Shown here: positions 15,005 to 63,440 of the stretch, in pieces
Layout of the letters: every line of letters begins with the position of its first letter
Numbering within the stretch: position 1 is the stretch's first letter
Assembly: GCF_039233145.1 (NCBI RefSeq)
Contig: NZ_CP136419.1
Location: 1,400,001-1,464,000 of the forward strand
Source of the DNA: Moorella humiferrea
Lineage (GTDB): Bacteria; Bacillota; DSM-521; Neomoorellales; Neomoorellaceae
DNA: 64,000 bases
Direction of reading: 5' to 3'
The notes under the pieces: generated by a model
Told to the model about the DNA's origin: nothing
The model's input: only the letters and a program-made list of their open reading frames with translations
Databases searched by the model: none
Program-made: the position numbers and the translations under genes

Positions 15005-15844
15005 CTATCCTAAAGCATAGGTCCCCAAAATTCGTAGCAAAACCGTGCGGGATTTTAGACCAGCCAGCACCTCATTCAACGGCGCCTCGTCACACCGGCC
15101 CTCGCAATCAATAAAGAAAAGGTATTCGCCCAGCTCTTTTTTAGTGGGTCGCGATTCAATGCGGGTTAAATTTATACCGGCTTCGGCAAAATCCTTTAAG
15201 ATGGTGTAAAGGGTTCCAGGTCTGTTGGCCGGGGCGGCCACCACCAAGGAGGTTTTATAAGGCCCGGTTAAAGATGGCGCCTCCCGGCCGACGACCCAAA
15301 ACCGTGTTTTATTTCCTGAATAATCCTGGATATCTTGCGCCAAAATCGGCAGGCGGTACAACGAGGCGGCGAAAGAGGAGGCAATGGCCGCCAGGTCTGG
15401 GCGTTTAAGAGCCTCTCCGGCGGCCTCGGCCGTACTGGTAACGGCTTTAATTTTTGCCCATGGAAGAACGGCGGCAAGGTAACGCCTGCACTGGGCCAGG
15501 GCCTGGGGATGGGACCAGACCTCCCGCACGGCATTTATGTCGTCTGCCTGGCTTAAGAGGCAGTGGTTGATGGGCAGTATCACTTCCCCGATTATCTGCA
15601 GTTCCATTTCTTCAAGGAGGAGATCCAGAGTCAGGTTGACGGCGCCTTCAATGGAATTCTCCACAGGCAGAATACCGGCCATCGCCCGGTGGTTTTTTAC
15701 GGCATCGACGACTCCCGGCAGTTCGGGGCATGCCAGGAGCTCCTCTACTTCTTTCTCACGTTCAGGTTCCAGGCGCCGCCTCCAGGTGACCGCCGCTTCA
15801 TGGGAAAAGGTTCCCGGCGGGCCTAGATACGCAATGGTCTTCAT
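15005..15844 (-). CDS. pheA: Prephenate dehydratase
   Basis: Converts prephenate to phenylpyruvate. The 279-residue monofunctional enzyme opens with the substrate motif [14 protein letters not shown] and has [10 protein letters not shown] near residue 62. The dehydratase motif [12 protein letters not shown] is near 180, and the Phe-binding ACT domain follows, with [17 protein letters not shown] near 235. No chorismate mutase domain is fused; AroH, encoded upstream of trpE, supplies that step. The ATG overlaps the aroF stop by 4 nt. Confidence 0.96.
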
Positions 15845-16869
15845 ACAGGTAGACGCCCCATTTCGCGTCCGACGGCGGTGATTATCGGTCGGATTTCCTC
15901 CATCAGACGGGCGAACTCCTTCGGTGTCAGAGACTGGGGACCGTCGGAGAGGGCTTCCTGGGGATTAGGGTGCACCTCAATGAGCAAACCGTCGGCGCCG
16001 GCGGCTAGGGCGGCCCGTGCCATGGGCGCTACCATACAGCGTCGTCCCGTCCCGTGGCTGGGATCGACTAATATGGGCAGGTGGGACAAATGTTTTACCG
16101 CCGGTACGGCGCTTAAATCCAGGGTATTACGGGTGTACGTCTCAAAGGTGCGAATGCCCCGTTCACACAAGATGACTTTGTTATTACCTTCGGCGAGAAT
16201 ATATTCGGCCGCCAGAAGCCATTCTTCGATGGTCGCCGAAAGACCCCGCTTCAAGAGGACCGGTTTTTGGACGCGGCCCACGGCCTGTAGGAGGGCAAAG
16301 TTTTGCATGTTCCGGGAACCTATCTGTAACACGTCGGCCACCTCGGCCACTTCCTTTATAAGAGAGGGATCCGTAATTTCCGTCACCACCGGCAGGCCGG
16401 TAACTTCCCGGGCTTCGGCCAGATATTCCAATCCCTTAAGGGCCAAGCCCTGGAAGGTGTAAGGGGAACTACGTGGTTTAAATGCCCCACCTCGCAGCAT
16501 GGTCGCTCCGGCTTCACGGACGGCCATGGCCGTCTCTAAAAGTTGCTCCCGGCTTTCTACCGCACAGGGACCGGCAATCACCTGTACCCGGCGTCCGCCA
16601 ACAAGCAAATCCCTTACCGGCACTATGGTATCCTCGGGATGGAAATCGCGACCGGCCAATTTATACGGGTGTAGTACAGGAACCACTTTTTCCACTCCCG
16701 GCATGGCGGCCAAAGTTTCGGCCTTTAAACGCGTTTTGTCGCCAATGGCCCCGATTATCACTCTCTCTACTCCTCGGGAAAGATGTACTTTAAATCCTTC
16801 CCGTTCCAGGCGTGCCATTACTTGCTGCTGCTCTTCCGGTGTTGCTCCAGGTTCCATGATAATTATCAT
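15841..16869 (-). CDS. aroF: 3-deoxy-7-phosphoheptulonate synthase (DAHP synthase)
   Basis: First enzyme of the shikimate pathway, joining PEP and erythrose 4-phosphate. It is of the AroA(beta)/KDO8P-like type with an N-terminal ferredoxin-like regulatory domain (residues 1-70, [15 protein letters not shown]). The barrel motifs are AGPCAVES near 100, [16 protein letters not shown] near 130, [19 protein letters not shown] near 210 and [10 protein letters not shown] near 275. I chose the ATG at 16869 preceded by GGGGGG. Unlike its neighbours it has its own promoter and attenuator-like leader. Confidence 0.96.
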
Positions 16870-16881
16870 CTTTATCCCCCC

Positions 16882-16915
16882 AAAAAAACAAAACGTCACC
16901 CCGCCAGGAGTGACG
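16882..16915 (-). terminator. Terminator hairpin in the aroF leader (candidate attenuator)
   Basis: Minus strand: stem CGTCAC/GTGACG (16894-16915) with further C/G pairing inside, then GTTTTGTTTTTTT ending 13 nt before the aroF ATG. Because it lies between an apparent promoter and the gene, it is better read as an attenuator than as the trpA terminator. Its CTCCTG (16905-16910) is complementary to CAGGAG (16933-16938) upstream, a possible antiterminator. Confidence 0.75.
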
Positions 16916-17041: not shown

Positions 17042-17824
17042 TTATATAACCTGGCGTAACTCCCTGACCAGCTCTGCCGCCGCGGCCAGCCCTTTTTTAT
17101 AAATTGTTTCAACCACAACGCTGCCGACGATGATGCCGTCGCAGTGGGGGGCTAACATTACCGCCTGGTCGGGGCTGCTGATGCCGAAGCCCACCCCCAG
17201 GGGAAGATCGGTCACCTTACGCACCCTTTCGAGGTAGGCCGCAATGCCGGGGGGCAAGCTATCCCGCGCTCCGGTTACTCCGGTCAGCGACACGCAATAA
17301 ACAAAACCTTCACCTATTGAAGTGATTTTATTAAGGCGCGCCGGCGTTGTAGTCGGTGCCACCAGGGGTATGGCAGCTATCTTCTTTGATTTTAATTTTT
17401 CCCGTAAAGGCCCCCCCTCTTCAAAGGGCAAATCAGGTACGATCAGGCCGTCAACACCGCACTCCGCCAGATCGCGCGCCAGTTTATCTAGGCCATATTG
17501 CAGGAGGGGATTATAATAGCTCATCAGGACCAAGGGCTGATTTAACCGCACCCGTAGCATTTGTACGAGCAGTAAGGTCTTTTCCAAGTTCATTCCATTG
17601 GCCAGAGCCCTGGCGCTGGCGGCCTGGATCACCGGGCCGTCGGCTACCGGATCGGAAAAAGGCACCCCCAGCTCGATAATATCGACGCCAATCTCTGCCA
17701 GGTGTTCCACGGCCGTAGCTACGGCTTCCGGGGAAGGATCGCCGGCACAAAGGTAGACAATCAAAGCCCGGCGCCCCTCCTGCTTCCTGTTGGTAAAAAC
17801 CGCGTCGATTTTTTCAACTCCCAC
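17042..17824 (-). CDS. trpA: Tryptophan synthase alpha subunit
   Basis: Cleaves indole-3-glycerol phosphate to indole and glyceraldehyde 3-phosphate in complex with TrpB. Motifs: catalytic [17 protein letters not shown] (Glu near residue 51, Asp near 62), [11 protein letters not shown], and the phosphate-binding [11 protein letters not shown] and IIVGSVVV. I chose the GTG at 17824, preceded by GGAAGGGAGAG, giving 260 residues, the usual length. It overlaps the end of trpB by 11 nt. A longer in-frame opening exists upstream but has no family similarity. Confidence 0.96.
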
Positions 17825-19019
17825 GGATTTTCTCTCCCTTCCGCAGCACCCTTTGAACCTGCTCGACGTCCTTATCGCCACGTCCGGAAATATTGATGAC
17901 GACGATTTCTTCCGGGGACAACCCGGGAACAATTTTCATGGCCAGGGCTACGGCGTGGGCGCTTTCCAGGGCCGGTATGATGCCTTCGGTGCGGCTCAAC
18001 AACTGAAATGCCTCCAGGGCCTCGAAATCGCTTATGGCCGTATAGACGGCCCGGCCCGTATCCTTTAGGTAGCTGTGCTCCGGCCCTACACCGGGATAAT
18101 CAAGGCCAGCCGAGATGGAGTAAACGGGTTCGATTTGGCCGTCTTCATCCTGGATGACGTAGCTGTAAGCCCCCTGAAAAACGCCCGGCCGTCCGGCCGT
18201 TAGAGAAGCGGCATGACGGCCGGTTGTTATACCCAGGCCGGCGGCCTCGGCACCCCACATTTTAACGCCGTCGTCCTGGATAAATGGATAAAAGAGGCCC
18301 ATGGCATTGCTGCCGCCGCCGACACAGGCAAATAGGTGATCGGGGAGGCGTCCGGTTTCTTCTAGGATTTGGCGGCGGGTCTCTTGACCAATAACTGCTT
18401 GAAAATCCCTGACGATCATTGGGTAGGGATGGGGACCGACGACGGAACCGATAAGGTAATGGGTGGTTTCAACGTTGGTAACCCAGTCCCGCAGGGCTTC
18501 ATTGACGGCGTCCTTTAAAGTACGGCTGCCGGCCGTAACGGGTATCACTTTAGCCCCGAGGAGTTCCATGCGAAAGACGTTCAATGCCTGGCGGTGGGTG
18601 TCTTCTTCCCCCATGTAAACCACACATTCCATTCCCAGCAGGGCGGCTGCCGTGGCGGCAGCCACGCCGTGCTGACCGGCGCCGGTTTCAGCAATCACGC
18701 GCTTTTTGCCCATACGCCGGGCAAGTAAAGCTTGCCCCAAAGCATTATTGAGCTTGTGGGAGCCGGTATGGTTTAAATCCTCTCTTTTTAAATAGATGCG
18801 GGCACCGCCCAGGTATTTAGTGAGGTTGGCCGCAAAATACAAGGGCGTCGGCCGTCCGGCATACTGTTCAAAGTAATAATTTAATTCCTTAATAAAGAGG
18901 GCATCTTCTTTGGCTTCCCTGTAAGCTTTTTCAATTTCCTCCAGGGCTGGCATCAGGGTCTCCGGTACAAATCGCCCACCGTAAGAGCCAAAATGACCGT
19001 TTACATCGGGTAAATGCAT
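17814..19019 (-). CDS. trpB: Tryptophan synthase beta subunit
   Basis: PLP enzyme joining indole and serine. The 401-residue protein has the PLP lysine in [18 protein letters not shown] (Lys near 87), the catalytic-loop sequence [10 protein letters not shown] near 110, and the glycine-rich phosphate site [10 protein letters not shown] near 233. It is a TrpB1-type sequence and pairs with trpA, which it overlaps by 11 nt. ATG start after GGAGGTAGCAAC. Confidence 0.98.
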
Positions 19020-19047: not shown

Positions 19048-19677
19048 TTACAGCATAAGGCGTTTTTCAGCTTCCCGCACGGCGCGCACGAAAGAAAGTA
19101 TTTTCTTTAAATCCTTGCGACCGTCAGTTTCTACGCCGCCGGCGACGTCGACGGCATAAGGGCGTATTATTTGAATGGCCTTGCCGACATTCTCAGGTGT
19201 TAGACCACCTGCCAGGATGATGGGTTTACCCCTGGCAGTGGCTCCTTTTGCCAGCTCCCAATTAAAAGAACGACCGCTGCCGCCGGCTACACCGGGGACA
19301 TAGGTATCGAGGAGAAAACCATGGACATCGGGATAATGGTCCATAACCTGAAGAAAACCGGCATCCTTTACCCTTAAGGCTTTGACAACCCGCTGGGAAA
19401 TGCCCCGGCAGTATTCCGGCGGTTCGTCGCCGTGGAGCTGCAGGACGTCCAAACGGCAGAAAGAAGCTATTTCTAAAAGGCTGTAACGGGGTTCATTTAC
19501 GAAAACCCCTACCGTCGTCGTAAAAGGTGGGAGTCTTTGAATTATCTCCCTGGCGGTTTCCGGGTTTATCCTGCGGGGGCTTGGGGCAAAGACAAAACCC
19601 ATAACGTCGATCCCGGCGTCGAGGACCATCCGCGCTTCTTCATAGCTACGTATGCCGCAAATCTTTATCCTGATCAT
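19048..19677 (-). CDS. trpF: Phosphoribosylanthranilate isomerase
   Basis: Catalyses the Amadori rearrangement in tryptophan synthesis. The 209-residue TIM barrel opens with KICGIRSYEEA (catalytic Cys near residue 7), has LLDTYVPGVAGGSGRSFNW near 125 (catalytic Asp) and ILAGGLTPENVGKAI near 155, and ends with VDVAGGVETDGRKD. It stands between trpC and trpB as in the standard order. Confidence 0.97.
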   Translation of the reverse strand: MIRIKICGIRSYEEARMVLDAGIDVMGFVFAPSPRRINPETAREIIQRLPPFTTTVGVFVNEPRYSLLEIASFCRLDVLQLHGDEPPEYCRGISQRVVKALRVKDAGFLQVMDHYPDVHGFLLDTYVPGVAGGSGRSFNWELAKGATARGKPIILAGGLTPENVGKAIQIIRPYAVDVAGGVETDGRKDLKKILSFVRAVREAEKRLML

Positions 19678-19708: not shown

Positions 19709-20485
19709 TTACTTCAGACACAACTCTTGGGCTTTGGCAACGACGTCCTTCGCCGTCATCAGGGCCTCTCCAACTAAAATGGCGTCGATACCGGCTGCGG
19801 CCACCTTAATGGCATCGCCTTTATTTTTAATGCCACTCTCGCTGACTACCACCGGTCCCGGGGGGATTAGTGGTCGTAATTCAATGGTGGTCTGCAGATC
19901 AACGCGAAACGTGCGTAAATCCCGGTTGTTAATGCCGATTAGTTGCGCCCCGGCACGGCAGGCAATCTCGACCTCCTCTGCCGTATGCACTTCCACCAAA
20001 GCCGCGAGGGCAAGTTTCGCGGCAAGGCGTAGATAATCCTGCAGTTCATAAGGTGTCAGTGCGGCAACGATAAGGAGAACGGCATCGGCCCCCAGGACCC
20101 TGGCCTCGTAGATCTGATAGGGATCAATGATAAAGTCTTTCCGGAGAAGAGGAAGGGGTGTCACCCCACGTACCAGCCGTAAATACTCAGGTTTTCCTTT
20201 GAAGTATTTATGGTCCGTCAGCACCGAAATTGCCGCAGCACCGGCAGCCGTATAAAGTTGCGCCTGCCCTTCAGGTTTGAAATCCGCCTGGATTAATCCC
20301 CGGGAAGGCGAGGCCTGCTTCAATTCGGCGATAAGTCGCAGTTGAGATCCCCGACGCCGCAGGGCGGCGGCAAAATCCCGTGTTAAGGGTAATTTTTGGG
20401 CTTCCCTTTCGAGGTCGGCAAGGGGCCTTTCTTCTTTAGCCGCCTCGACCTCCTTGATTTTATAAGCCAGAATTTCTGCCAGCAT
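19709..20485 (-). CDS. trpC: Indole-3-glycerol phosphate synthase
   Basis: Ring closure step of tryptophan synthesis. Motifs: AELKQASPSRGLI (Lys near residue 55), LTDHKYFKGKPEYL, LLRKDFIIDPYQIYEA (catalytic Lys near 110), IGINNRDLRTF near 185 and VSESGIK near 212. I chose the ATG whose A is also the last base of the trpD stop codon (TGATG), giving 258 residues. The overlap indicates coupled translation. Confidence 0.97.
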   Translation of the reverse strand: MLAEILAYKIKEVEAAKEERPLADLEREAQKLPLTRDFAAALRRRGSQLRLIAELKQASPSRGLIQADFKPEGQAQLYTAAGAAAISVLTDHKYFKGKPEYLRLVRGVTPLPLLRKDFIIDPYQIYEARVLGADAVLLIVAALTPYELQDYLRLAAKLALAALVEVHTAEEVEIACRAGAQLIGINNRDLRTFRVDLQTTIELRPLIPPGPVVVSESGIKNKGDAIKVAAAGIDAILVGEALMTAKDVVAKAQELCLK

Positions 20486-21510
20486 CAGGCGGCCCAACTT
20501 TCTATAAAAGACTTCATGGATTCAAGTTTGGCCAGGGCGGCACCGGAATCAATGCTTCTTGCCGCCGCCGCCAGGGCGCCGGGCAAAGAAGTCTCGCTTC
20601 CCGCCGCCAAGATGCCGAAGGCGGCGTTCAGAAGCACCACGTCCCGGGCCGGGCCCTTTTCTCCTTTAAGAACGGCAAGGGTAATGGCGGCGTTGTCGTC
20701 TGCCGTGCCCCCCACCAGGTCTTCTAAGCGAGCCCTGGCAATGCCTACATCCTCAGGATAAAAGATATATGTGTTAATGCTGCCGCCCTCAAGGCTTGTT
20801 ATCTGCGTTGGTCCCGTAGTGGTGACTTCATCCAATCCGTCGCCGTGTACGACATAAGCCCGTCTACACCCCAATCTCCCCAGAACCGCGGCCATCTTTT
20901 CCGTCAAAGAAGATTCATAAACGCCGACAAGTTGATAAGGAGCATTGGCCGGGTTGGTAAGAGGACCTAGGAGATTAAAAACAGTGCGGATGCCGATTTC
21001 CCGGCGGGGACCGGCGGCATGCTTCATGGACCCATGAAATACAGGTGCGAAAAGAAAGGTCAGCCCCACTTCATCCAGACAACGGGCCGCAGCCGCCGGC
21101 GGCAGCTCAACCTTGACGCCCAGGGCTTCCAGCACATCGGCGCTGCCGCAACGGCTGGATACCGAACGATTGCCGTGTTTGGCCACGGGAACGCCGGCCC
21201 CGGCAATGACAAAGGCCGCCGTAGTGGATATATTGAAGGTATGGCGGCCGTCGCCGCCGGTACCGCAGGTATCAACAAAAACAGTGTGACGGGTGGATAA
21301 AACGGCGGCTCGACGGCGCATAGCGCGGGCAAAACCGGTGATTTCCTCTACCGTTTCCCCCTTTAACCTGAGGGCGGTGAGGAAAGCGGCTATTTGGGCC
21401 GGGGTGGCTTCACCCGCCATTATTATATCCATCGCCTGCAAAGCCTCGGCTTCCGTTAAATCCCGTGCGGTCACTACCTGGGAAATCAAGGACTTAAACA
21501 CTCTGCTCAT
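20485..21510 (-). CDS. trpD: Anthranilate phosphoribosyltransferase
   Basis: Adds phosphoribose from PRPP to anthranilate. The 341-residue protein has the PRPP loop DTCGTGGDGRHTFNIST (near residue 80), KHGNRSVSSRCGSADVLEALG (near 110) and HGDGLDEVTTTGPTQI (near 220). It is separate from trpG, not fused. It lies 24 nt downstream of trpG and overlaps trpC by one base. Confidence 0.98.
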   Translation of the reverse strand: MSRVFKSLISQVVTARDLTEAEALQAMDIIMAGEATPAQIAAFLTALRLKGETVEEITGFARAMRRRAAVLSTRHTVFVDTCGTGGDGRHTFNISTTAAFVIAGAGVPVAKHGNRSVSSRCGSADVLEALGVKVELPPAAAARCLDEVGLTFLFAPVFHGSMKHAAGPRREIGIRTVFNLLGPLTNPANAPYQLVGVYESSLTEKMAAVLGRLGCRRAYVVHGDGLDEVTTTGPTQITSLEGGSINTYIFYPEDVGIARARLEDLVGGTADDNAAITLAVLKGEKGPARDVVLLNAAFGILAAGSETSLPGALAAAARSIDSGAALAKLESMKSFIESWAA

Positions 21511-21534: not shown

Positions 21535-22125
21535 CTATACATTTATCCGGGTGAACCCGGCATATACCTCGAGGAAGTTACGCAACAGTTCCTTTCCTAC
21601 AGACGTTAAGATAGATTCCGGATGGAACTGCACCCCCTCCACCGCCACCTGCCGGTGACGCAGACCCATTAATTCTCCTGTCTCACTGCGTGCCGTCACT
21701 TCCAGGCACGGCGGCAGGCTTTCCTCCTCAACAATTAAGGAATGGTAACGAGTAGCCGTAAAAGGATTGGGTAGATTACGAAAAATCGTCCTGCCGTCAT
21801 GGCGGATGTTCGAAGTTTTACCATGCATCAACCTGCCGGCCCGTACTACTCGCCCGCCAAAAGCCTGGGCAATACTCTGATGGCCAAGGCACACCCCTAA
21901 GATGGGAAATTTTCCGGCACAAGCCGTTACCGCCGCCAGAGAAATACCGGCCTCGGCAGGAGTGCAGGGACCTGGCGAAATAACTAAGTAATCCGGACGC
22001 ATGGCGAAGATTTCTGCCAGGGTGACGGCGTCGTTACGCCGTACCAGCACTTCCTGTCCCAGTTCTTGAAAATACTGGACAAGGTTATAGGTAAAGGAAT
22101 CATAATTATCAATCACTAGCAGCAC
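21535..22125 (-). CDS. trpG: Anthranilate synthase component II (glutamine amidotransferase)
   Basis: Supplies ammonia from glutamine to TrpE, and may also serve p-aminobenzoate synthesis. The triad is visible: Cys in [16 protein letters not shown] (near residue 79) and His/Glu in [10 protein letters not shown] near 170; the oxyanion loop is [14 protein letters not shown] chose the GTG at 22125 because GGGAGGGG lies 9-10 nt upstream; a GTG at 22134 would overlap that site. It overlaps trpE by 17 nt. Confidence 0.96.
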
Positions 22126-23599
22126 AGTCGTCACCCCTCCCGGCGTCCAGCACTTGAAGCATGGCTCGGGCTTTATTCAGGGTTTCCTCGTATTCGGCCG
22201 CGGGTTCGGAATCGGCGACTATGCCTGCACCGGCCTGGACGAAGGCCCTCCCGCCGGTAAAAATAATCGTGCGTATGGCAATGCAAGTATCCAGGTTGCC
22301 GTTGAGGCTTAAGTACCCGACGGCACCGGCGTAAGGACCCCTTGCCGTCGGTTCCAGTTCGGCGATGATCTCCATGGCCCGTACCTTGGGGGCGCCGGTA
22401 ACCGTTCCCGCCGGAAAGCAGGCCAGCAAAGCGTCCAGGGCCTTCTTATCCGGTGCCAGCCGGGCTGTTATGCTGGATACTAGGTGCATGACGTGGGAGT
22501 AATATTCTACGACCATTTGCCGCGGTACCTGGATGCTGCCCGGAACGGCCACTTTACCGACGTCGTTGCGCCCCAAATCGAGGAGCATTAGATGTTCGGC
22601 CCGTTCCTTTTCATCGTTTAATAGCTCCTGCATTAAATGCTGCTCTTCCTTGGGGGTACGACCCCGCGGCCTTGTTCCGGCTATGGGACTATAGTCGATC
22701 CTATCTCCCTCCACCCTGACAAGCATTTCGGGAGAAGACCCTACCAGCTGAACTCCCGGTAAGTTAAGATAAAACATATAGGGAGATGGATTGAGGACGC
22801 GGAGGCGCCGGTAGACGGCCAAAGGGTCGCCGTGAAAGGGGGAATTTAAGCGCTGGGACAGGACTACTTGAAATATGTCCCCGGCCGCTATATAATCTTT
22901 GGCCCTTTGGACCTTGGCTATGAATTCCTTCCGTGTCATGTTGGCCTGCCAAGAACCGCCGCTGACCACCCCTTTGTCCTTATCACCCTTTATCCTGGCA
23001 GGACGTTCTAAATTCTTCACAAGGGAATTAATTACGGCAACGGCTTCTTCATAACTCCTTGCGGCCTCTTCGCCACCCTGCCCCAGGCAGGCCACCCGCA
23101 CCGTCCGGCGCAGGTGATCATAAATGAGAAAAGTTCTGTGGAGGGTCAGATAGGCATCAGGTAACTGCAGGTCATCTACGGTATGTTGGGGCAGGTTCTC
23201 AATTTCCCGTACGAGGTCGTAGCCCAGGTAGCCGACCAATCCTCCCGAAAACCGGGAACTATTATTAAAGGGCAGGCTAAGTCGTGTTAGCAACCGGCGT
23301 AAAGCCGTCAAGGGTTTTTCCGGAAGAAGGTCGGTTTTCCTTCCCGCCGTGATATACGCCCTCCCGGCTCGTATAATAAAGGTAATTAAAGGGTCATAGC
23401 CGATTAAAGAATAACGTCCTAGCCTCTCGCCTCCTTCTATGCTTTCCAAAAGAAAACTATGGGGTTTATTGGCCAGCCTCAAGTACAGGGAAATTGGGGT
23501 TTCCGTGTCGGCCAGGATTTCAGTCCATACCGGTATATAGGGAACACGTGTAGATATCGATAAATCCAGGTAGGTTTGCCGATCGGGCCAGATAATCAT
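22109..23599 (-). CDS. trpE: Anthranilate synthase component I
   Basis: Converts chorismate and ammonia to anthranilate. It has 496 residues from the ATG at 23599, which follows GGGGGAGGGG; an upstream start would lie in the terminator-leader region. The N-terminal feedback-site sequence [18 protein letters not shown] is present, as are the chorismate-site blocks [40 protein letters not shown] and [11 protein letters not shown]. First gene of the trp operon proper, behind an attenuator. Confidence 0.97.
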
Positions 23600-23620: not shown

Positions 23621-23651
23621 AATAAAAACCAGCGCTCAAGCGAGCCCTGGT
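23621..23651 (-). terminator. Attenuator terminator of the trp operon
   Basis: Minus strand: ACCAG-g-GCTC, loop GCTT, GAGC-g-CTGGT (23628-23651), then TTTTTATTTTG. It lies 20 nt upstream of the trpE ATG and downstream of the apparent promoter, so it acts inside the leader. Its 5' arm CCAGGGCTC (23642-23650) can pair instead with GAGCCTGG (23683-23690), giving an antiterminator with a single bulge. Confidence 0.85.
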
Positions 23652-23662
23652 CGGTATAACAA

Positions 23663-23721
23663 CTTAGCTCCTTACCTCTCCTCCAGGCTCAACTCCAACT
23701 CTCCTCGGCTCAACTCAGCTA
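23663..23721 (-). promoter_or_regulatory. Eleven-triplet NAG array in the trp leader (TRAP-like binding site)
   Basis: Reading the minus strand 5' to 3', the 59 nt parse into one TAG, nine GAG and one AAG, separated by 2, 2, 2, 2, 3, 2, 4, 2, 5 and 2 nt. The Bacillus TRAP protein is an 11-mer that binds eleven (G/U)AG repeats with 2-3-nt spacers in just this position. The seventh and eighth triplets overlap the antiterminator strand. The leader has no Trp-rich peptide and no T-box core. The binding protein is not identified in this window unless it is the HutP-like product of 24188-24592. Confidence 0.75.
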
Positions 23722-23739
23722 TATTCCCTTGTTGGTAAC

Positions 23740-23769
23740 AGCATAACACGGGAAGTAAATAACTGTCAA
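23740..23769 (-). promoter_or_regulatory. Promoter of the trp operon
   Basis: Minus-strand TTGACA (23764-23769) and TATGCT (23740-23745) with an 18-nt spacer (17 nt if TTATGC is used). It starts 10 nt after the aroH stop and leads into the NAG-array leader. Confidence 0.75.
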
Positions 23770-23779
23770 TAGTTTTTTG

Positions 23780-24136
23780 TTAAGCCAAATCGGGACGCAG
23801 TTCGGAGGCCCTGCCCAAATAAACGTGAACCGGTTCCCGGTCGCTGTAGGCATGGATTAAAACGCGGATTATTCCCGGAAGGCTTCCCGGTACAGGGATC
23901 TCGGTGGCGCACATTAAAGCGGTACTGTGCCAGCCCAAACGCCTGGCGGCTTCGGCCGGAAAGGCGGCATTAAGATCCGGTGTCACCGTAAAAATGGCAC
24001 TGATTATATCCTCTACGGCCAGCCGGTTTCGGTTTTGCAGCTCTCGCAGCAAGCGCTCGGTAGCCTCGAGGATGGCCGCCGCCTTATTTTCTTTTACATC
24101 AACCGCCCCGCGGAAACCCCTTACCTTAGTCATCAT
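23780..24136 (-). CDS. aroH: Chorismate mutase, AroH type
   Basis: Rearranges chorismate to prephenate for Phe and Tyr. The 118-residue monofunctional enzyme has the AroH family landmarks RGFRGAVDVKENKAAAILEAT, VTPDLNAAFPAEAARRLGW, ALMCATEIPVPGSLPGIIRVL and VYLGRA. ATG start after GGGGAGGAAC. It lies 51 nt downstream of the hutP-like gene and directly upstream of the trp promoter, as in the Bacillus aro supraoperon. Confidence 0.96.
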   Translation of the reverse strand: MMTKVRGFRGAVDVKENKAAAILEATERLLRELQNRNRLAVEDIISAIFTVTPDLNAAFPAEAARRLGWHSTALMCATEIPVPGSLPGIIRVLIHAYSDREPVHVYLGRASELRPDLA

Positions 24137-24187: not shown

Positions 24188-24592
24188 TTATACGGCTCGA
24201 TGTCCCAGACCGATCCCGACCTCATCAAGATGTAGCAGGCCGATGCCGAAAAAAATAGCCACGCTCAAATGGTCCTGCCAGCGAGCAATACCGATTTTGC
24301 CGCCTACGTTCAAACCGAGGGCTTTAGGCATAATTTGGGATAAGGCTTCCCTGGTCGCCCCGGCGACGGCGCCTTCCTCAGGGTGGGTTTCTTTGATGAC
24401 TCCTTCACGTTTGGCGGCTACCACGGCCCGTTCCACGATTTTCTGCATGGAATTGATGAATTCGCCGCCATAATCGACTGCCACTGCCTTTATACCGCTG
24501 GCCGCATATTCTTTTTTTAAGCGCCCTTCTTCTTCCCGGTTTTCACTGAGGGCCATCCTGAGGGCCGCTGCCGCTACCTTTCTGCTGCCCAT
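24188..24592 (-). CDS. HutP-family RNA-binding regulator homologue
   Basis: HutP of Bacillus subtilis is a hexameric antiterminator that binds NAG motifs in hut mRNA with Mg2+ and L-histidine. This 134-residue protein aligns by eye along the family: GGEFINSMQKIVERAVVAAKREGVI, then ATREALSQI, then WQDHLSVAIFFGIGL and a GIGLGH ending. The C-terminal His is kept, but the two histidines in HutP's SHALYHATMEAL block are Gly here (EEGAVAGATREAL), so ligand or metal use may differ. I chose the ATG at 24592 because GAGGT lies 7 nt upstream; ATG 24598 is also possible, but ATG 24631 would fall upstream of the predicted transcription start. First gene before aroH-trp. Confidence 0.8.
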   Translation of the reverse strand: MGSRKVAAAALRMALSENREEEGRLKKEYAASGIKAVAVDYGGEFINSMQKIVERAVVAAKREGVIKETHPEEGAVAGATREALSQIMPKALGLNVGGKIGIARWQDHLSVAIFFGIGLLHLDEVGIGLGHRAV

Positions 24593-24633
24593 TTCCATGA
24601 CCTCTGCACCTACCCGTTTTTTCCCATGCACCG

Positions 24634-43635: not shown

Positions 43636-43651
43636 ATAGTCTGTATATATC

Positions 43652-43795
43652 CCATCACGCTGAATTGCGGTAAAACAACCGTAAGCGGGGGAACCAGTTT
43701 TTCGGGGGTGAATCTTGCCGGCAGCGGCCGGCGAGTAGGGCGTATAAATTTTACGTCCGAACCCGTCAGCTAACTTCGTAAGCGTGGAGGGTATA
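43652..43795 (+). ncRNA. Cyclic-di-AMP riboswitch (ydaO/yuaA class)
   Basis: Conserved aptamer blocks are seen in order: CGCTGAATTGCGG, GCGGGGGAACCA, GGGGGTGAATC, AGTAGGG and CCGAACCCGTCAGCTAAC followed by TTCGTAAGCG. These match the ydaO class known to sense cyclic-di-AMP and usually turn genes off. A terminator follows before otsA, so high c-di-AMP should lower trehalose synthesis. Sequence recognition is strong; the regulatory sign is from family knowledge. Confidence 0.93.
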
Positions 43796-43811
43796 TATTG
43801 TTATTGAATTT

Positions 43812-63334: not shown

Positions 63335-63350
63335 GTAATATATAACGTCT

Positions 63351-63400
63351 AGGCGATGGAGTTCGCCTTTAAATCTGCGTTATCGCAGTGATGACTCCTA
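63351..63400 (+). ncRNA. Fluoride riboswitch (crcB motif)
   Basis: The core GGCGATGGAGTTCGCC, an AAAT link, CTGCG...CGCAG stem and TGATGACTCCTA match the crcB fluoride aptamer. It precedes two crcB genes and overlaps a terminator, so fluoride should prevent termination and turn on export. Confidence 0.95.
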
Positions 63401-63440
63401 CCCCGAAGGGTATCTTTATGCCTGAGAGGTAGGATTTTTT
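63396..63440 (+). terminator. Fluoride riboswitch terminator
   Basis: Stem TCCTACC (63396-63402) / GGTAGGA (63428-63434), then TTTTTT. The 5' arm is shared with the aptamer's last conserved block, the expected mutually exclusive design. Confidence 0.85.

Follow-up and report, generated by a model that had tools for sequence, protein, structure and literature searches.

The 150-base leader between aroH (stop at 23780) and trpE (ATG at 23599) on the minus strand of Moorella humiferrea is very probably a transcription attenuator of the trp operon under the control of TRAP, the product of mtrB. The window, that is, the whole 64,000-nucleotide stretch that was analysed, covers bases 1400001-1464000 of a single-contig genome of 2,671,946 bases. 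From 23769 to 23621 a sigma-70-like promoter is followed by NAG triplets in an array, which overlaps one half of a putative antiterminator, and then by an intrinsic terminator; trpEGDCFBA comes directly after it. The first-pass annotation of this DNA had proposed a TTGACA promoter, a NAG array and a terminator before trpE, together forming a TRAP-type system. All three elements were located on the minus strand by sequence, and the proposed mechanism is supported by the presence of a TRAP gene, by the conservation of array and terminator, and by the co-occurrence of arrays and TRAP across the phylum. Both the mechanism and the protein family are already known. The features of the locus are as follows.

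23764-23769, minus strand: -35 element TTGACA (sequence; most relatives also have it before the array)
23740-23745, minus strand: -10 element TATGCT (sequence)
23663-23721, minus strand: predicted TRAP-binding array of 11 NAG triplets, one UAG, nine GAG and one AAG (chain scoring)
23683-23690, minus strand: putative antiterminator 5' strand GAGCCTGG, within the array (folding, pairing energies)
23642-23650, minus strand: putative antiterminator 3' strand CCAGGGCTC, equal to the terminator 5' arm (folding, pairing energies)
23624-23652, minus strand: intrinsic terminator (attenuator) GACCAGGGCTCGCTTGAGCGCTGGTTTTT, a GC-rich hairpin with a U-run (sequence, folding)
23780-24136, minus strand: aroH (monofunctional chorismate mutase), the gene that immediately precedes the trp promoter (PF07736, TIGR01796)
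24188-24631, minus strand: HutP-like protein in which only one of the three HutP metal histidines is kept (PF09021, alignment)
22109-23599, minus strand: trpE, anthranilate synthase component I (PF00425, PF04715)
21535-22134, minus strand: trpG, glutamine amidotransferase subunit, within the trp operon (PF00117)
20485-21510, minus strand: trpD (PF00591, PF02885)
19709-20497, minus strand: trpC (reading of the translation, sequence only)
19048-19677, minus strand: trpF (reading of the translation, sequence only)
17814-19019, minus strand: trpB (PF00291)
17042-17932, minus strand: trpA, start codon uncertain (reading of the translation, sequence only)

The promoter boxes are 18 nt apart, or 17 if TTATGC is taken as the -10 element, and transcription would start near 23733. 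Downstream of trpA, after about 142 bp and on the same strand, lies a DAHP synthase gene (15841-16899) that possibly belongs to the same transcription unit.

The triplet array is beyond chance. When triplet chains were scored by dynamic programming, the best chain, UAG-CU-GAG-UU-GAG-CC-GAG-GA-GAG-UUG-GAG-UU-GAG-CCUG-GAG-GA-GAG-GUAAG-GAG-CU-AAG, obtained 8.75, against 3.55 for the runner-up in the window on either strand. Its spacers measure 2, 2, 2, 2, 3, 2, 4, 2, 5 and 2 nt, 8 of the 10 being 2-3 nt long. In 2000 dinucleotide shuffles of the leader this score was never attained (maximum 7.8), and shuffling the whole window 60 times gave a best score of 3.9. Stable TRAP binding has been described for seven or more (G/U)AG repeats (PMC4027176), a number that the array reaches with spacers mainly of 2-3 nt.

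Array and terminator occupy the same position in all 14 readable trpE leaders of the family, so that the comparison of Moorella-group leaders suggested by the first-pass annotation came out in favour of its reading. The first seven or eight triplets, like the CCUG spacer, hardly vary among the closest Moorella genomes. Towards its 3' end the array differs between relatives, and for this reason their scored chains contain from 8 to 17 triplets; in our leader the last triplets are poorly spaced, with a 5-nt gap and a terminal AAG. The earlier count of exactly eleven (nine GAG, one TAG, one AAG) is thus reproduced by the best chain of this leader but does not extend to relatives as a conserved number. 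Triplet number also departs from 11 elsewhere within the TRAP family: Bacillus halodurans, whose TRAP is a 12-mer, has 19 triplets in its trp leader (PMC3184956), compared with 11 in the present one.

No mtrB gene had been visible in the initial reading, which is true of the window but not of the genome. A PF02081 (TRAP) match of 134.8 bits (cut-off 21.3) is located at 1970178-1970378 of the same contig, approximately 0.5 Mb from the trp operon, and the encoded protein matches solved TRAP chains at about 1e-29. The residues that we take to be the RNA contacts of TRAP (K37, K56 and R58 in B. subtilis numbering) correspond to K40, K59 and R61, and those that presumably contact tryptophan (T25, T30, Q47, T49 and S53) correspond to T28, T33, Q50, T52 and S56; all are invariant in seven diverse homologues. 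The TRAP gene is present in 17 of the 18 genomes of the family, the sole exception being a genome that is 58% complete. In the Moorella-family loci that were read, mtrB is flanked by coaD and pfkA (gene names from translations), whereas the B. subtilis gene neighbours folE. Unlike in B. subtilis, no anti-TRAP was found: in a search of the class, a query with an approximate sequence of B. subtilis RtpA matched only within open frames 256-388 aa long, most of which have the length expected of DnaJ zinc-finger proteins.

The array also contains the candidate antiterminator strand. GAGCCTGG (23690-23683) pairs with CCAGGGCTC (23650-23642) at -12.0 kcal/mol with one bulge, and the array segment GAGCCUGG is complementary to CCAGGGCUC, the terminator 5' arm. 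Truncated before the terminator 3' arm, the leader folds into the antiterminator. When K-AG triplets were masked to mimic TRAP, the terminator formed in 12 of the 12 leaders folded. The minimum-energy fold of the full leader contains the terminator even without TRAP, so the switch would have to operate co-transcriptionally. Most leaders retain the position of the pairing, and in other genera it is formed by different sequences (in L025, GAGCAAGGUUA with UAACCAGUGCUC). Compared with spacer-shuffled arrays, 13 of 14 native pairings fall below the shuffle mean with single p values of 0.05-0.27, the pairing of L026 showing no advantage, and arms swapped between genera pair almost as well as native ones (-11.0 versus -11.7 kcal/mol). 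These coevolution tests are only mildly positive, one cause being that GAG repeats pair with CUC in any case, and for this reason we treat the antiterminator as inferred. The pairing of array and terminator arm suggested by the first-pass annotation is therefore present and kept in position, while its covariation support is modest; as a regulatory step it is plausible, and the antiterminator complement would explain the irregular 4-nt spacer CCUG.

We infer TRAP binding, tryptophan dependence, antiterminator function and the size of the TRAP ring (11 or 12) for the following scheme. RNA polymerase would start near the predicted site and read through the NAG array. At low tryptophan TRAP would be inactive, and GAGCC(U)GG of the array could pair with CCAGGGCUC; the resulting antiterminator would block the terminator and allow trpEGDCFBA to be transcribed. 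With tryptophan present, the Trp-TRAP ring would wrap the GAG/UAG triplets, the triplet at the start of the antiterminator among them; the terminator at 23652-23624 would then fold, and transcription would end before trpE.

The main effect of TRAP bound to the array might instead be to stall polymerase, to release it or to block translation, without preventing an antiterminator. The weak covariation leaves room for such action, and B. subtilis TRAP is reported to induce termination independently of the attenuator RNA (PMC3913778). However, every relative retains a full terminator, the CCUG spacer conserved in Moorella matches the antiterminator complement, and the strong ribosome site of trpE (GGGGGAGGGG) lies beyond the reach of the array, and we regard this alternative as unlikely. 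T-box and leader-peptide attenuators are common upstream of trp operons, and a terminator placed between promoter and trpE would suit a Trp T-box or a Trp-codon leader peptide, in which case the triplets would be incidental. Against this, the window contains no Rfam T-box match, neither a T-box nor any other Rfam family overlaps the leader, and about 110 nt are insufficient space for a T-box; no transcribed open reading frame with Trp codons is visible by eye; and the array is conserved across all 14 leaders. Both forms of control, already reported absent in the initial reading, were rejected on the Rfam search and the reading of the leader, and we give them next to no probability.

A different reader of the triplets is offered by the HutP-like protein encoded beyond aroH, which could bind them and control the terminator in place of TRAP, as HutP does at hut. 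HutP recognises NAG triplets, the neighbour matches PF09021 at 176 bits, and its gene adjoins the trp operon and stays near aroH-trpE in most genomes of the family. The HxxxH motif and a C-terminal histidine, which we take to be the Mg2+ ligands of HutP, are nevertheless incomplete: all six sequences of this family have G and G at the HxxxH positions and keep only the C-terminal His, whereas both solved HutP and the second HutP copy have HxxxH. Known HutP sites have few triplets with longer spacers, unlike the 11 triplets with 2-nt spacers seen here, and arrays track TRAP across the phylum (the comparison was made with TRAP only). With two metal histidines missing, the neighbour was judged an unlikely reader of the array, and the case for it appears very weak compared with that for TRAP. 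The second HutP copies were located at C1:180659-181048 in the same genome and at L061 in genome G004, the latter retaining HxxxH.

TRAP control probably reaches a second Moorella operon. A search of the whole 2.67-Mb genome for six triplets spaced by 2 nt, one mismatch being allowed, returned only two matches, the trp leader and a site at 2244068, while the reversed control pattern gave none. The second array (C1:2244068-2244764; L080, L096) precedes an operon that encodes a TrpP-family transporter (PF17099) together with an ECF ATPase. Its leader contains nine G/U-AG triplets, and a conserved GAGACGAGACUGGCCGG forms with CCUGGCGGUUUUCGUC an antiterminator whose energy in six leaders is about -19 to -23 kcal/mol, set against a strong terminator; this pair of antiterminator and terminator is very conserved. 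It is a well-formed attenuator, predicted to be of the TRAP type. An array also precedes trpP (yhaG) in B. subtilis, where it covers the ribosome site and translational repression by TRAP is reported in a paper cited by PMC4347634; in Moorella, an attenuator made up of array, antiterminator and terminator lies 5' of the trpP-ECF ATPase operon. In another genus the trpP-type element also stands before a trpB2-like gene (L065).

The trp leader itself resembles that of B. subtilis in its 11 (G/U)AG-type triplets with spacers mostly of 2-3 nt, and in an array that overlaps a putative antiterminator competing with a terminator before trpE (PMC4027176). It differs in that the array begins ~12 nt after the predicted start, which leaves no space for a 5' stem-loop, and none is present between that start and the first triplet. 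This stem-loop is an accessory of the B. subtilis leader rather than a defining part of TRAP control generally. Only 14 nt separate the terminator from the ribosome site, too few for a long trpE translation-control helix, and trpG is located within the trp operon. Compared with the hut leader, the likeness ends at NAG-triplet recognition; number and spacing of the triplets differ. The probable attenuator extends a textbook RNA control from Bacillus to thermophilic acetogens.

To place the leader in its phylum, 398 genomes were surveyed for TRAP presence and for exact matches to a six-triplet array. TRAP genes were found in 199 of them. Named carriers of TRAP include Heliophilum, Desulfotomaculum, Pelotomaculum, Thermincola, Syntrophaceticus and Carboxydocella. 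The description of the system as one outside Bacillus was correct, yet with half of the genomes carrying TRAP it is not rare. TRAP genes outside Bacillus are mentioned in earlier reviews; no discussion of TRAP in Moorella was found in the papers searched. Arrays occur in 101 of the 199 TRAP-positive and 8 of the 199 TRAP-negative genomes (Fisher p = 3.7e-28, each genome counted regardless of kinship, with both groups spanning many families). The eight genomes with an array and no TRAP match are G369, G403, G102, G127, G107, G141, G220 and G338; in G403 at least, the array is a pure GAGCA tandem repeat, and a few others in the survey are likewise simple tandem repeats (e.g. L149, L153).

Most survey arrays lie upstream of trp or aromatic genes, the following gene being mainly trpE, trpB2, trpP, iorA, trpG/pabA, trpD or DAHP synthase (from translations). 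In six trpB2-like genes (L152, L156, L160, L162, L163, L077) the array spans the ribosome site and start codon, an arrangement suggesting that TRAP represses their translation directly. In L091 and L155 an array and a terminator precede iorA, an indolepyruvate oxidoreductase gene, which is predicted to be a new TRAP target. On the evidence of the survey, TRAP may rank among the major tryptophan regulators outside the Bacilli. It is probably an old and widespread regulator in the phylum, with a repertoire broader than in Bacillus that would include trpP-ECF, trpB2, iorA, pabB and DAHP synthase besides trpE, through attenuation or covering of start sites, and would operate in Moorella without anti-TRAP or a 5' stem-loop. 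We consider the target list (iorA, trpB2, pabB and DAHP synthase being the new predictions, drawn from sequence) and the phylum-wide association the more interesting part of this work. The natural set of leaders could be used to probe what TRAP needs in triplet number, spacing and antiterminator geometry.

Three further observations were made. The pabB-like leaders of Moorella relatives (L036-L043) combine NAG arrays, a conserved stretch CGACTCGGAG...GGGGTGAG...CCAGC and a terminator; this stretch has no Rfam match, and no consistent alternative (antiterminator) fold was found in these leaders. A methyltransferase-like gene has its start under a NAG array in two genomes of family f24 (L145, L146). 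The window also holds a c-di-AMP riboswitch at 43648-43798 (RF00379, 83.2 bits) and a fluoride riboswitch at 63343-63407 (RF01734, 45.3 bits).
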